A DNA stretch of 25,313 nucleotides from a virus, in the IMG/VR virus record IMGVR_UViG_3300048921_000065, positions 1 to 25,313 of that record. One strand, written 5' to 3'. The first letter of the stretch is position 1. Every line of letters begins with the position of its first letter. The notes under the pieces are model-generated. The model was not told the DNA's origin. It did no database searches and saw nothing but the letters and a program-made list of their open reading frames with translations. The position numbers and the translations under genes were made by a program. This document shows positions 5,692-25,118 of the stretch, piece by piece.

Positions 5692-6624
5692 ATGAGCGGC
5701 ACGCCGTTCCCTATCGATCCGGTGTTGACCGGCATCATCAACGCCTACAAGAACAACGCGATGATCGCCGATCTGGTGTCGCCGCGCCTAACGCCGAACC
5801 TGACCAAAAGCCTCTTCAAGTGGTGGTACTTCAATTTCGGTCAGTTCATCACGATCACCGACACCAAGGTTGGCCGTAAGTCCGCCCCGAATGAAGTCGA
5901 GTTTCAGGGTGACGAGAAGGAAGGCCAGACCCTCGACTACGGTCTCGACGACGTCATCCCGATCGATGATATCAACCAGGCGCCACCCGGCTACGATCCG
6001 CGAGCTTTCGCCGCGCAGAAGCTCATCGACCTAATCTTGCTCGATCGCGAAGTTCGTGTCGCCAAGATGGCATTCGACGACACCCTTTACCCCGCCAGCA
6101 ACAAGGAAGTGCTGACAGGTACCGACAAGTGGTCCAACGACGCCAGCAACCCGATCCGGCTGATCACTGAAGCCGCCGACAGCATGATCATTCGCCCGAA
6201 CAATCTGGTGTTGGGCCGGGTCGAATGGACCGGCTTGCGAACGAACAAGGCTGTCCTCCAGTCGCTCACGATCTCCGGCACCGACAAGGGCATGGCAACC
6301 AAGCAGGCCGTGGCTGACCTTCTGGAGCTGGATGACATCATCATCGGCGAAGGCTGGATCAACACGGCCAAGAAGGGGCAGGCCGTCAACATGCAGCGCG
6401 CCTGGAGCGCCGACGCGTTGCTCTTCCACAAAGCCCCTTTGGCGAACTCGATCGACGCAACGCCGACCTATTCCTGGACGGCGCAGTACGGCGAACGCGT
6501 GGCTGGCTCGATCGACGAGCCGAAGACCGGCCTTCGCGGCTCCGTCCGCGTCCGCTCCGGTGAGAGCGTCAGGGAAGTCATGGCCGCTCCGGAGCTTGGC
6601 TACCTGTTCGAAAACGTCCTCTGA
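5692..6624 (+). CDS. Major capsid protein
   Basis: The 310-residue product sits where the major head protein (Mu T) is found and has the usual size. Features typical of such capsid proteins are the N-terminal IINAYKNNAMIADLVSPR, the KVGRKSAPNEVEF loop region, the central helix DLILLDREVRVAKMAF, and NNLVLGRVEWTGLRTNKAVL in the later core. The C-terminus VREVMAAPELGYLFENVL resembles the end of capsid proteins from transposable siphophages. A strong AAGGAG at 5680-5685 lies six bases before the start, in keeping with high expression. A 115-base gap with a stable hairpin follows. Confidence 0.85.
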   Translation: MSGTPFPIDPVLTGIINAYKNNAMIADLVSPRLTPNLTKSLFKWWYFNFGQFITITDTKVGRKSAPNEVEFQGDEKEGQTLDYGLDDVIPIDDINQAPPGYDPRAFAAQKLIDLILLDREVRVAKMAFDDTLYPASNKEVLTGTDKWSNDASNPIRLITEAADSMIIRPNNLVLGRVEWTGLRTNKAVLQSLTISGTDKGMATKQAVADLLELDDIIIGEGWINTAKKGQAVNMQRAWSADALLFHKAPLANSIDATPTYSWTAQYGERVAGSIDEPKTGLRGSVRVRSGESVREVMAAPELGYLFENVL

Positions 6625-6739: not shown

Positions 6740-6976
6740 ATGCCTCCCAAGAATGGCAACAATGCCGGTGATGCCGGCGCTGAGACGGAACAGGTCACAC
6801 TTTACCCCGTAACGCTCGCAAAGCCCGCGCGGATCAACGGTGTCAAAGCCAAGGCTGGCGAGACCGTCGAGGTCGATGCAACGGTCGGCAAGCAGCTTCA
6901 TGACGCTGACGCGCTCGATCTGGAAGAGACCGAGAAGCTCAACACCTTTTCCGTTAGCAGCGGGAACCAGGCGTAA
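6740..6976 (+). CDS. Small phage protein, DUF7210-like
   Basis: The product is 78 residues. A flexible N-terminus (NGNNAGDAGAETE) leads into VTLYPVTLAKPARINGVKAK and AGETVEVDATVGKQLHDADAL. This 'substrate-like strand, then AGETVEV' pattern resembles small phage proteins annotated as DUF7210 that lie beside capsid genes; their function is not known to me. The start has GAAGGAA seven bases upstream. It ends two bases before the next gene. The assignment is by pattern recall and context. Confidence 0.6.
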   Translation: MPPKNGNNAGDAGAETEQVTLYPVTLAKPARINGVKAKAGETVEVDATVGKQLHDADALDLEETEKLNTFSVSSGNQA

Positions 6977-6978
6977 CC

Positions 6979-7221
6979 ATGACCGAGAAACTGTCGGCTG
7001 CCGAGTACATTCGCAAGTCTGAGGAAGTGCAACTCCTCATGGCCGAAAACAAAGTTGCCGAGGAACAGATCCTCGACAGATTGAATGCGCTCGGCAGCCG
7101 ATCGGATATCGACAAGCGCTGGCTTTCGATTGCCAGGACGGACATCGAGCGCGGCTTCATGGCGCTCAATCGTGCGCTCGCCGAACCCCTGATGAAGATG
7201 GTTTCCGAGGTCGAGCTATGA
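6979..7221 (+). CDS. acb2: Acb2-like cyclic nucleotide sponge (anti-CBASS), putative
   Basis: The 80-residue product looks like a two-helix hairpin. Helix 1 (about 6-39) has EYIRKSEEVQLLMAENKVAE; a short turn with SRSDIDKRW leads into helix 2 with RWLSIARTDIERGFMALNRA and LAEP. The second segment follows the conserved pattern RW-hh-hI-x-x-T-x-h-x-x-GFMAL-x-RA-h-A-x-P of Acb2 proteins, which bind cyclic di- and trinucleotides and so blind CBASS immunity. Y10 and K25 have the same spacing as Y11 and K26, which I recall as ligand residues in the Pseudomonas phage PaMx33 protein. Acb2 genes of B3-like phages also sit among structural genes near the capsid gene. The start has only a weak binding site (CCAGG); the end overlaps the next gene as ATGA. 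The ligand and the host target are inferred. Confidence 0.68.
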   Translation: MTEKLSAAEYIRKSEEVQLLMAENKVAEEQILDRLNALGSRSDIDKRWLSIARTDIERGFMALNRALAEPLMKMVSEVEL

Positions 7222-7631
7222 CCGCTTATGCAACATTGTCCGATCTGCTCGAACGCGCGGGCGAGGACGAAATCCTCCAGGTCGCCGACCGCGATCGCGA
7301 CGGCGCTGCAGATCCGGACGTGGTCGACAAGGCCATTGCGACCGCTGGCACTGAAATCGACGGCTACATCGGCACCCGGTATCAGTTGCCGCTGCCAGCC
7401 GTTCCCGGCCTCGTCAACACCTGGGCCGTGTCGATCGCGCGCTACCACCTCCATCTTAATGGCGCTCCAGACCATGTCGTTCGTGACTGGAAAGCTGCCA
7501 TGGACGCCCTGAAGGACGTCGCGGCCGGCAAGATCAATCTTCCGTTTGATGACGCCAGTCAGCAGCCGAGCGACGGCGCGGGCCGCGTCACTCTCGTAAG
7601 GCCAGATTTCAACTACGAGGGCTTTCTGTGA
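7218..7631 (+). CDS. Mu gp36-like head-tail connector protein (DUF1320)
   Basis: The 137-residue product has the DUF1320 layout: YATLSDLLERAGEDEILQVAD at the start, a GAADPDVVDKAIATAGTEID helix, then GYIGTRYQLPLP, and a helix with WAVSIARYHLHL. Such proteins form part of the neck between head and tail. Start and stop both overlap neighbours (ATGA with the Acb2-like gene; GTGA with the next), so the three genes are probably translated in series. The C-terminus RVTLVRPDFNYEGFL is typical of the family. Confidence 0.85.
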   Translation: MTAYATLSDLLERAGEDEILQVADRDRDGAADPDVVDKAIATAGTEIDGYIGTRYQLPLPAVPGLVNTWAVSIARYHLHLNGAPDHVVRDWKAAMDALKDVAAGKINLPFDDASQQPSDGAGRVTLVRPDFNYEGFL

Positions 7632-8050
7632 TCACCGCCGTCGCCAATCGCCTGAAGGACAAGACGACCCTGACCGAGGTTCTGACAGCCGAGGATCTGG
7701 AGTCGTTATCGAATGGCGTCATGCCGAGGAACCGCACGGTATTCGTCCTGCCGTTTCGCGAGAGTGCCCAGCCCAACCAGTATGCCACCGGAACCTTCCG
7801 GCAGACGATCGAAGTCTGGTTCCTGACCGCGTTCTTCATTCGCCGTTACGACGACGCCCGAGGTGGCGACCGTGTCAGTGAATTCGAAGCGACCCGCGAC
7901 GAGATCGAGGCGGCTCTTGGCGGCTGGCAGTGGGATGAACACGAGGAACTGGTGGAAATGGTCGCCAGCCAGGCGAGCGCCGCACTCGGCAAAGGCACCA
8001 GCATCTTCGTTCACACCTGGAAGACCACACGAACCCTGGAGACAGCATGA
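7628..8050 (+). CDS. Mu gp37-like tail terminator / head-tail joining protein
   Basis: The 140-residue product fits the gp37 family: an N-terminal helix (VANRLKDKTTLTEVLTAEDL), beta strands with VFVLPFRESAQPNQYATG and FRQTIEVWFLTAFFIRR, and a helix with EFEATRDEIEAALGGW. Proteins of this kind cap the tail tube and join it to the neck. It starts with GTG at 7628, overlapping the gp36 stop (GTGA), and its stop overlaps the next ATG. The assignment rests on position and pattern. Confidence 0.75.
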   Translation: MITAVANRLKDKTTLTEVLTAEDLESLSNGVMPRNRTVFVLPFRESAQPNQYATGTFRQTIEVWFLTAFFIRRYDDARGGDRVSEFEATRDEIEAALGGWQWDEHEELVEMVASQASAALGKGTSIFVHTWKTTRTLETA

Positions 8051-23154: not shown

Positions 23155-23321
23155 TGAAGACTATGGCGACAACCAAATACAGCCAGTTGCTACGCGATGC
23201 GGCCGGCTATCCGAAAATTCTAACGCCCAAAGAGGCGGAGCATCTGCGCGAGCAGATGAGAGAGTTTCTTGAGCTGCCTCCCGGTAGGATCATCGGGGTC
23301 CCAGCGTTGCTAAATCGATAG
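23154..23321 (+). CDS. Small helical protein, 55 residues
   Basis: An ATG overlaps the previous stop (TAATG) and opens 55 codons: MKTMATTKYSQLLRDAAGYP, then a helix EAEHLREQMREFLEL and a hydrophobic end (IIGVPALLNR). The tight coupling suggests it is translated. The last 32 bases overlap the end of the minus-strand protease, so the two genes converge. Family not recognised. Confidence 0.5.
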   Translation: MKTMATTKYSQLLRDAAGYPKILTPKEAEHLREQMREFLELPPGRIIGVPALLNR

Positions 23322-23754
23322 CGAAAGTTGGGCGCTGAGCGTCGCGAACGTCATATACCAAACGACCATATTGCAGGAATTGCCGACCGAGGATCGCATC
23401 AAAACCGTTACCCTGCGCGCGCACATCCAGGGCGCAGACCTCGGTCGCCCATTGCAGACCGAGAGACGGCAGTGAAATCGTCATTTGATGCACCGTGCTG
23501 GACACGCCATTTGCCACCACGTTTCTCACCGGCGGGGATTTGAGAAAGGTGAGAAGGTCTCGGTCGAGATATAGATAGTCCGCGCCGGTATCAATGAGGG
23601 CTCGTACCGCTGCACCAGCCGGAGCACCGGCAATGCCAGTCATGAATGTGATGTCCAAACAGGGGGAGCCGCGAACATGGTCGTCGGTTTCGCTTCCGCC
23701 CGGTTCTATGAACATGATTGGGAGGGTCACTGTTTTCCGGTCAACGCCAGCCAT
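23290..23754 (-). CDS. Retropepsin-like (clan AA) aspartic protease, 154 residues
   Basis: The minus-strand product contains the active-site motif ALIDTGADYLYLD with D55-T-G, then a strand TVHQMTISLPSLGL and the second conserved element FDAILGRQFL. This is the retroviral-type single-domain aspartic protease fold, which acts as a dimer. There is no signal peptide. A GGGGAG lies nine bases before the start. It is the only convincing minus-strand gene in the phage region and is not part of the late operon, so it may be a cargo (moron) gene or mark host DNA. Its substrate is unknown. Confidence 0.72.
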   Translation of the reverse strand: MAGVDRKTVTLPIMFIEPGGSETDDHVRGSPCLDITFMTGIAGAPAGAAVRALIDTGADYLYLDRDLLTFLKSPPVRNVVANGVSSTVHQMTISLPSLGLQWATEVCALDVRAQGNGFDAILGRQFLQYGRLVYDVRDAQRPTFAIDLATLGPR

Positions 23755-24108: not shown

Positions 24109-24303
24109 ATGGCGGATCGTCTCGGCAGGCTGCGAGGGCGCTTCATTATGTCCATCAACGACGAGCCAGAAATCCGTGAGTTGTTCAGCGGATGTCTAAT
24201 TGAACCCATCGAATTGGCCTATTCAGTGTCAAGAGGAAAAGGTACGACAGCGAGAGAACTTATCATCAAAGGTTGTGCAAAATCTTGTCAGACGAAGACC
24301 TAG
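24109..24303 (+). CDS. Small ORF of unknown function (64 residues)
   Basis: ATG 24109 opens 64 codons; an inner ATG at 24148 with GAGG ten bases upstream would give 51 residues beginning SINDEPEIRELFSGC. The product ends in a lysine-rich tail. It overlaps the next gene's open frame in a different phase by 31 bases. No family is recognised and it may not be expressed. Confidence 0.3.
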   Translation: MADRLGRLRGRFIMSINDEPEIRELFSGCLIEPIELAYSVSRGKGTTARELIIKGCAKSCQTKT

Positions 24304-25118
24304 CGAAGGCGAAAGCACCTACCGGGGGCCTATCAACGATGATTGCGGCGGGTCTTCTGTCCGCAGTGTGGCTTATGGCAGGAGTTGGCTTTCTCTTCAT
24401 CTCACAAGCCCCCTCCGACTGTCACGAGAGCGATCGAATTCTGTGCCTCTCAGCAGGCGAGTTTGGCTCATACCTTCAGGGGCTCTTTGCCCCTGTTGCC
24501 TTTATCTGGCTTGTCGCAGCCGTGTGGATCCAGTCCAAAGAACTTGGTCACCAGAGGGAAGAGTTAAGGCTCACCCGGACGGAGTTCGAATACAACAGAG
24601 AGGTGATGAAGTCGCAGGCAGAAGAGGCAAGGAAGCAAGCAGAACATATTGGCGAACAGACAAAAGTGCTCTTAACCGCCGAAGCTGACAAACATCTATC
24701 GACGCATCTCGCCTTACTGCAGCAATGGGTAATCACGCATTGTGGCCCTCGCTCTGAGAAAACTGGACCGACTAACTCTTCCTTGGCACCGGGTTACCTT
24801 ACCGAGCACACTCCGCAAGCTCCCCAGGAATTCTTTGTGGAGCTTGTCAGACGGCTTCTTTCCGCCGCCGTTGAATATAAAGAAGGAAAAACACAGAAGC
24901 TGGAAGCGCTTCTGGCCGTCGATGTCAGATGTATTTATTACATCTGCGATAGGTTGCTCGTGATCGCTAAACTGCAAGGAAAGCTGAGCGCGTCGATGAG
25001 CACGCTCCTTCAAGCGAGCCAGGTTAGCTGGGTAAACTGGGAGCTCGTCAACTTACTCCCCAAGTTGCCGGAAGAAGAACAGGCGCGCTTTCCTCACGTC
25101 TTTGGCAGCAAAGACTGA
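24273..25118 (+). CDS. Two-helix membrane protein with coiled coil (possible phage-defence type)
   Basis: The 281-residue frame shows two transmembrane segments (about 24-45 and 66-90, the second FAPVAFIWLVAAVWIQSKEL), then a long charged coiled coil with LTRTEFEYNREVMKSQAEEA, and a soluble C-terminal domain of about 140 residues with IYYICDRLLVIAKL. This layout (GxF-xxYLxGxFAP, FIWLVAAV, then coiled coil) recalls small membrane proteins of proteobacteria, some annotated as putative abortive infection proteins; I cannot assign the family. The start is uncertain: TTG 24273 has AAAGG right beside it, and ATG 24339 begins at the first membrane helix. Codon use is less GC-rich than in the phage genes, suggesting different origin. 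Confidence 0.55.
   Translation: MCKILSDEDLAKAKAPTGGLSTMIAAGLLSAVWLMAGVGFLFISQAPSDCHESDRILCLSAGEFGSYLQGLFAPVAFIWLVAAVWIQSKELGHQREELRLTRTEFEYNREVMKSQAEEARKQAEHIGEQTKVLLTAEADKHLSTHLALLQQWVITHCGPRSEKTGPTNSSLAPGYLTEHTPQAPQEFFVELVRRLLSAAVEYKEGKTQKLEALLAVDVRCIYYICDRLLVIAKLQGKLSASMSTLLQASQVSWVNWELVNLLPKLPEEEQARFPHVFGSKD

Follow-up and report, generated by a model that had tools for sequence, protein, structure and literature searches.

We found that a small gene lying between the capsid and gp36 genes of a rhizobial transposable phage encodes a protein that is likely a functional Acb2-family sponge, one that would probably bind cyclic oligonucleotides and be made together with the head genes. The protein carries the Acb2 helix-2 core and the Tyr/Lys pair, and the gene is optionally present in a conserved niche; the best reading of these features is a real Acb2-family sponge whose dinucleotide pocket has been remodelled. 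The Acb2 family, the way it acts, and members in B3-like phages were known before; our analysis adds how far the niche extends among alphaproteobacterial phages, that it is optionally occupied, and that the rhizobial variant has diverged. The window, the whole 25,313-nucleotide stretch analyzed here, is a 25-kb IMG/VR record without the early region. The phage of the window is most closely related to a prophage carried by Rhizobium lusitanum P1-7 (Acb2 93% and portal 98% identical; hereafter the twin). Because this prophage carries the MuA transposase, MuB, and GemA, the description of the window in the earlier note as a rhizobial transposable prophage was right.

The window protein almost certainly belongs to the Acb2 family

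The acb2-like open reading frame starts with ATG and ends with a TGA that overlaps the ATG of the following gene (Table 1), and its 80-residue product reads MTEKLSAAEYIRKSEEVQLLMAENKVAEEQILDRLNALGSRSDIDKRWLSIARTDIERGFMALNRALAEPLMKMVSEVEL. Among Pfam families, only PF24729 (Acb2/Tad1 hairpin) exceeded its cut-off for this protein (46.9 bits, E 3.1e-12). As the curated cut-off of this family is 27 bits, the match lies well above it and is thus not due to chance. A single-sequence phmmer search against solved structures detected Acb2 (8ixz/8h2j) at E 8e-4, while a 12-sequence profile matched Acb2 8h2j at E 2.4e-23 and T4 Vs.4 (7uq2) at E 7e-8, with no further match at E < 0.2. Thus, the profile search, which the earlier note had named as the test able to overturn its assignment to the Acb2/Tad1 hairpin family, gave a clear match. 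The protein was also matched by PHROG 717, which carries no assigned function, and by no model of NCBIfam or PADLOC; none of the three Acb2-type proteins that we tried matched any NCBIfam model. The conserved Acb2 core that had been proposed for the second helix is indeed present, as the stretch in question, RWLSIARTDIERGFMALNRALAEP, corresponds to residues 47-70 and helix 2 is intact. Within it, R47 corresponds to R67 of Pseudomonas-phage Acb2, which we take to matter for trinucleotides. Judged from these alignments, the window protein is almost certainly a member of the Acb2 family.

Table 1. Coordinates of acb2, its neighbors, and residues of interest in the window
Feature	Position	Strand	Evidence
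acb2-like gene, 80 amino acids, Acb2/Tad1 hairpin family PF24729	6979..7221	+	Pfam, profile matches, AF2 hairpin
Helix-2 core K46-P70 (KRWLSIARTDIERGFMALNRALAEP)	7114..7188	+	Profile and multiple alignment; T54 aligned to T68 and A68 to F82 of T4 Acb2
Codon of E9, in place of the Gly present in 79/79 relatives covering the position	7003..7005	+	Alignment
Codon of Y10, aligned to Y11 of Pseudomonas-phage Acb2 and Y8 of T4 Acb2	7006..7008	+	Alignments
Codon of A22, in place of the Asn kept in 93% of relatives	7042..7044	+	Alignment
Codon of K25, aligned to K26; Arg in the R. lusitanum twin	7051..7053	+	Alignment
Major capsid protein gene (PHROG 1005), 47% identical to B3-like capsid	5692..6624	+	PHROG, sequence comparison
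DUF7210 gene upstream of acb2	6740..6976	+	Pfam PF23843, 26.9 bits, just below the cut-off of 27
Mu gp36-like head-tail adaptor gene after acb2	7218..7631	+	Pfam PF07030, E 1.5e-37; PHROG 195 head-tail adaptor
Phage tail terminator gene	7628..8050	+	Pfam PF23840, E 2.5e-13
ATGACCG, left copy, at the acb2 start	6979..6985	+	Comparison with the empty site of L115 (single copy)
ATGACCG, right copy, at the gp36 gene start	7218..7224	+	Comparison with the empty site of L115

The AF2 model of the window protein is an antiparallel hairpin of helices 7-39 and 46-75, with Y10 inside the continuous first helix. This secondary structure comes from the top-scoring one of five models (pLDDT 90.6), the other four having pLDDT values of 79-85. 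In the model of a canonical relative (L031, capsid 66% identical), helix 1 starts only at residue 18 and Gly12-Tyr13 lie outside any helix. The top three Foldseek matches of the window model were solved Acb2 structures, although the matches were weak (E 0.15, TM 0.45). The L031 model matched Acb2 best (E 4e-4, TM 0.65-0.70) and T4 Acb2 next, with no other match below 0.5. Alignment of the window model to Acb2 chains with VIA-align gave Z scores of 8.1 and 7.8; however, unrelated helical hairpins scored equally well or better, and thus this comparison does not discriminate Acb2. Homology to Acb2 is therefore secure at the sequence level, while the geometry of the N terminus has probably been altered.

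We further compared the window protein with known sponges. Pseudomonas-phage Acb2 (PDB 8h2j, 8h2x, and 8ixz series) is likewise a PF24729 hairpin with Tyr and Lys 15 residues apart, has the core RW..I..T...G.M...R....P in common with the window protein, and in its B3-like member occupies the same niche after the capsid gene. In contrast to the window protein, it has an insertion of ~19 residues between the helices, the Gly before the Tyr, and the conserved Asn, and helix 1 of the window protein is predicted to run through Y10. T4 Acb2 (Vs.4), found by the profile as described above, aligns with its Y8 to Y10 and its T68 to T54. The window protein, like the Pseudomonas-phage type, has Ala (A68) where T4 Acb2 has the stacking F82, and overall identity is low. 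RcapMu44 and RcWaterboi gp42, proteins of Rhodobacter transposable phages, are about 41-49% identical to the window protein, sit in an identical neighborhood, and similarly have no inter-helix insertion; they differ in their canonical LPVAGYKPQS N terminus, a Phe at the stacking position, and a longer C terminus, and the RcapMu/RcWaterboi capsid protein is only 24% identical to that of the window. Tad1, an anti-Thoeris and anti-CBASS sponge, has the PF24729 hairpin family name in common with the window protein but possesses an N-terminal β-sheet domain. The window protein consists of the hairpin alone, as its 80-residue AF2 model contains no β strand and the Tad1-type domain is not present.

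acb2 is optionally present in a conserved head-gene niche

The gene order around acb2 confirmed the earlier claims that it lies among head-tail connector genes and that its location beside the capsid gene is that of B3-like Pseudomonas phages: capsid, DUF7210, acb2, Mu gp36, and tail terminator genes follow one another in the window, the same order (with a DUF7210-type gene) is found in RcapMu and RcWaterboi, and a B3-like phage has the capsid gene, one gene, an acb2-like gene, and a gp36-like gene. This capsid-to-gp36 niche of acb2 recurs in dozens of IMG/VR and genome loci. In the window, the start of acb2 lies 2 bases beyond the end of the DUF7210 gene, while its stop shares 4 bases with the gp36 start; the gene is thus likely translated along with the late head operon, and its product should appear together with the capsid protein.

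We surveyed IMG/VR loci anchored on either the capsid (untruncated loci) or the gp36 gene, both sets being chosen without selecting on Acb2. The acb2 gene was present in 30 of 75 capsid-anchored and 33 of 77 gp36-anchored loci and absent from the remaining 45 and 44, respectively. One close relative without acb2 (L115; capsid 81% and gp36 88% identical) provides a clean empty site, in which the DUF7210 gene joins gp36 at CATGACCGC. The window acb2 is flanked by two copies of ATGACCG, whereas the empty site has one; this repeat, which lies at start codons, may be due to chance. The presence and absence among relatives, together with the clean empty site, indicate that acb2 is cargo.

The Tyr/Lys pair is retained, while near-invariant residues around it are replaced

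Y10 and K25 correspond to Y11 and K26 (8h2j numbering) in an ungapped alignment, and the distance between them is 15 residues, as had been noted from the sequence and as is the case in 8h2j and phage vB_Pae-SS2019XII. Because the local Pfam alignment of the window protein begins at residue 14, past Y10, the equivalence of Y10 rests on the ungapped multiple alignment. We scored conservation over 82 distinct relatives, with percentages calculated among those covering each column, and found Tyr in 96% and Lys in 98% at these two positions. The surroundings have changed in the window protein. Besides E9 and A22, the latter in the Asn column three residues before the Lys, the Pro of the "LPV" motif, kept in 90% of relatives having the position, is replaced by Ser (S6). 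Y10 is retained in both rhizobial copies, while K25 is found in the window copy and R25 in the twin. Thus, of the standard ligand pocket assumed previously, the Y10/K25 spacing stood, whereas the Gly before Y10 and the conserved Asn are replaced and the Lys is Arg in the closest relative. These conserved Gly-Tyr/Asn surroundings are not a published defining feature of Acb2.

The residues concerned have known counterparts. In T4 Acb2, the Y8A mutation disrupts dinucleotide binding, and F82 stacks on the bound cyclic dinucleotide, with the escaper F82C binding less (PMC12657218); T68M also lowers binding (PMC12657230). In the rhizobial pair, the N-terminal dinucleotide half is changed at near-invariant positions, and therefore the ligand preference may, on the strength of these alignments, differ from that of the studied members. 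The earlier suggestion of a different ligand range is strengthened by the E9 and A22 replacements and by R25 in the closest relative, and we hold an altered ligand range of the window protein to be a tentative possibility.

The signature G-Y-x14-K is kept by 42 of the 49 distinct hairpin proteins from capsid- or gp36-anchored loci. The seven without it are the rhizobial twin, L138/L141 (S, H, T), L270 (Y to D), L227, L234, and the frameshifted L246. L138, L227, and L270 passed the PF24729 cut-off, and L234 fell below it (20.8 bits). Hairpins without the signature keep most of the helix-2 core, except L134, which was aligned by Pfam only. At a different site in another Rhizobium locus (L108), we found a hairpin without the Tyr.

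Selection, host defense, and alternative readings

The acb2 genes of the window and the twin differ by six nonsynonymous and three synonymous substitutions (omega 0.60), compared to an omega of 0.08-0.12 for portal, MuF, protease, and DUF7210; the contrast gave a Fisher p of 0.0095, with small numbers and a gene chosen post hoc. The open reading frame is intact in both copies, with the start, stop, and overlap kept. Among 148 Rhizobium species genomes, 28 encode a SMODS nucleotidyltransferase, a CBASS signal maker, above the Pfam cut-off, while no SMODS enzyme was found in R. lusitanum P1-7, the host of the twin. In this survey, SMODS was the one class of signal-making enzyme covered.

Across phages that infect different hosts, the gene keeps a fixed place between the capsid and gp36 adaptor genes, which would suit a structural component of the head-tail connector, not involved in counter-defense. 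However, the absence of acb2 from many head-module relatives in both surveys, including L115, argues against a structural role and fits a counter-defense cargo, and Acb2 homologues in unrelated phages sit outside the head genes. We thus rejected the connector role, which is strongly disfavored and highly improbable. It is also unlikely that acb2 is a decaying or relaxed gene, drifting because a host without CBASS no longer needs it. Its raised omega, with a change at the ligand Lys among the substitutions, the lack of a SMODS enzyme in P1-7, and a frameshifted copy in another lineage (L203/L246) are what such decay would leave. Yet there are only nine substitutions, their excess is equally explained by positive selection, both copies remain intact from start to stop and overlap, and the helix-2 core residues are unchanged.

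A sponge with a shifted ligand is possible rather than probable: its dinucleotide site would be lost or remodelled, and it would work mainly through the trinucleotide site at the trimer interface or on another signal. This reading is consistent with E9, A22, S6, and the R25 of the twin, all of which replace near-invariant residues, with the kept helix-2 core, and with the predicted helix through Y10, which in the canonical control L031 starts only at residue 18. In the same niche, L138/L141, L227, L234, and L270 have likewise lost the signature while keeping helix 2, and it is also missing in L134 (in the niche) and L108 (elsewhere). Moreover, the dinucleotide and trinucleotide sites of known Acb2 are independent (PMC12043709). 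A sponge that no longer captures dinucleotides could also escape guard systems; one of these, Panoptes, fires when Acb2 removes cyclic dinucleotides and is no longer triggered by Y8A T4 Acb2 (PMC12657218). Against this, Y10 is retained in both rhizobial copies and K25 in that of the window, and the helix through Y10 was seen in the best of the five models, the rest having the lower pLDDT given above. In addition, no mCpol (Panoptes) gene was found among the 148 Rhizobium genomes, in a search whose positive control gave no match either. A wider proposal, which we regard as rather doubtful, is that the DUF7210-gp36 slot is a swap-in site for Acb2-type sponges whose dinucleotide half is repeatedly lost or rebuilt with helix 2 kept, the rhizobial sponge having an altered, perhaps trinucleotide-only, specificity that does not trip guards watching dinucleotide removal. 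That dinucleotide capture is sometimes given up, with Panoptes as one possible reason, is plausible but unproved.

Overall, a working cyclic-oligonucleotide sponge is the likely function of the window protein. Besides the sequence, model, and gene-order evidence, the SMODS enzymes of the 28 Rhizobium genomes favor this reading; the replaced Gly and Asn, R25 and the raised omega of the rhizobial pair, the weak structural matches of the window model, and the lack of a SMODS enzyme in P1-7 count against it. As in the known members of the family, which are hexamers, the helical hairpin would assemble into a homo-oligomer that would sequester cyclic oligonucleotides from CBASS-type defense, and this signal capture would leave the defense effector switched off. 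As accessory cargo between the DUF7210 and gp36 genes, overlapping the late head operon, acb2 would be expressed late and the sponge made together with the capsid protein.

Implications for alphaproteobacterial phages

Acb2 has been best studied in Pseudomonas phages and T4. Among alphaproteobacterial transposable phages, it now emerges as a common but optional cargo that is found beside the capsid gene and annotated as hypothetical. The earlier view that Acb2 is little described in Rhizobiales phages needs qualifying: homologues are common in alphaproteobacterial phages, albeit annotated as hypothetical, and the RcapMu44 protein had already been deposited as "similar to cyclic-nucleotide binding domain". 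In a search that covered few subscription papers, and thus does not prove absence, no paper dealt with Acb2 and Rhizobium together, and CBASS goes unmentioned in a survey of alphaproteobacterial phage genomes. Phages deleted for acb2 gain capsid mutations that facilitate their escape from CBASS (PMC10419184), which makes the niche suggestive; a sponge made alongside the capsid protein may therefore be timed to the CBASS trigger. The rhizobial variant and the canonical L031, which come from the same phage lineage, offer a direct test of how much of the pocket is required for dinucleotide capture.

Divergent relatives and other genes of the window

Several relatives of the window acb2 showed unusual forms. 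The capsid-gp36 slot of L134 (5330-5545) is occupied by a highly divergent PF24729 protein (38.2 bits), the C terminus of which is closer to T4 Acb2 than to the local type. The acb2 gene of a Rhizobiaceae prophage (L203/L246) is frameshifted within helix 1, and a close intact copy is found in L198/L240. In L019 (7746-8273), L048 (~5830), and L049 (~5812), the Acb2 hairpin forms the C-terminal part of a longer protein whose N-terminal extension contains PGDFF..Y.DGY.S.SPR.AFLEGY, while in L004, L056, and L057 the hairpin is followed by a C-terminal extension of ~60-80 residues (ETGWVLERA...EHRW-like) that may represent a second, fused domain. In Rhizobium phage RHph_X2_26 (L009, 4444-5249), an Acb2 homologue lies directly 3' of a gene deposited as TIR domain-containing. 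Pfam did not support this annotation and instead assigned the neighbor to DUF1937 (E 2e-19) and DUF4406; a functional pair of the two genes is possible.

Near the right end of the window phage, we noted two further genes. The protein encoded at 24273-25118 (+; 281 amino acids) has a coiled coil and, at its N terminus, probable membrane helices, and its gene is a candidate cargo; the protein had no match in Pfam, NCBIfam, or PADLOC and belongs to PHROG 9267, which is without known function. The gene at 23290-23754 (-) encodes a retropepsin-like (clan AA) aspartic protease, as suggested by sub-threshold Pfam and NCBIfam matches.
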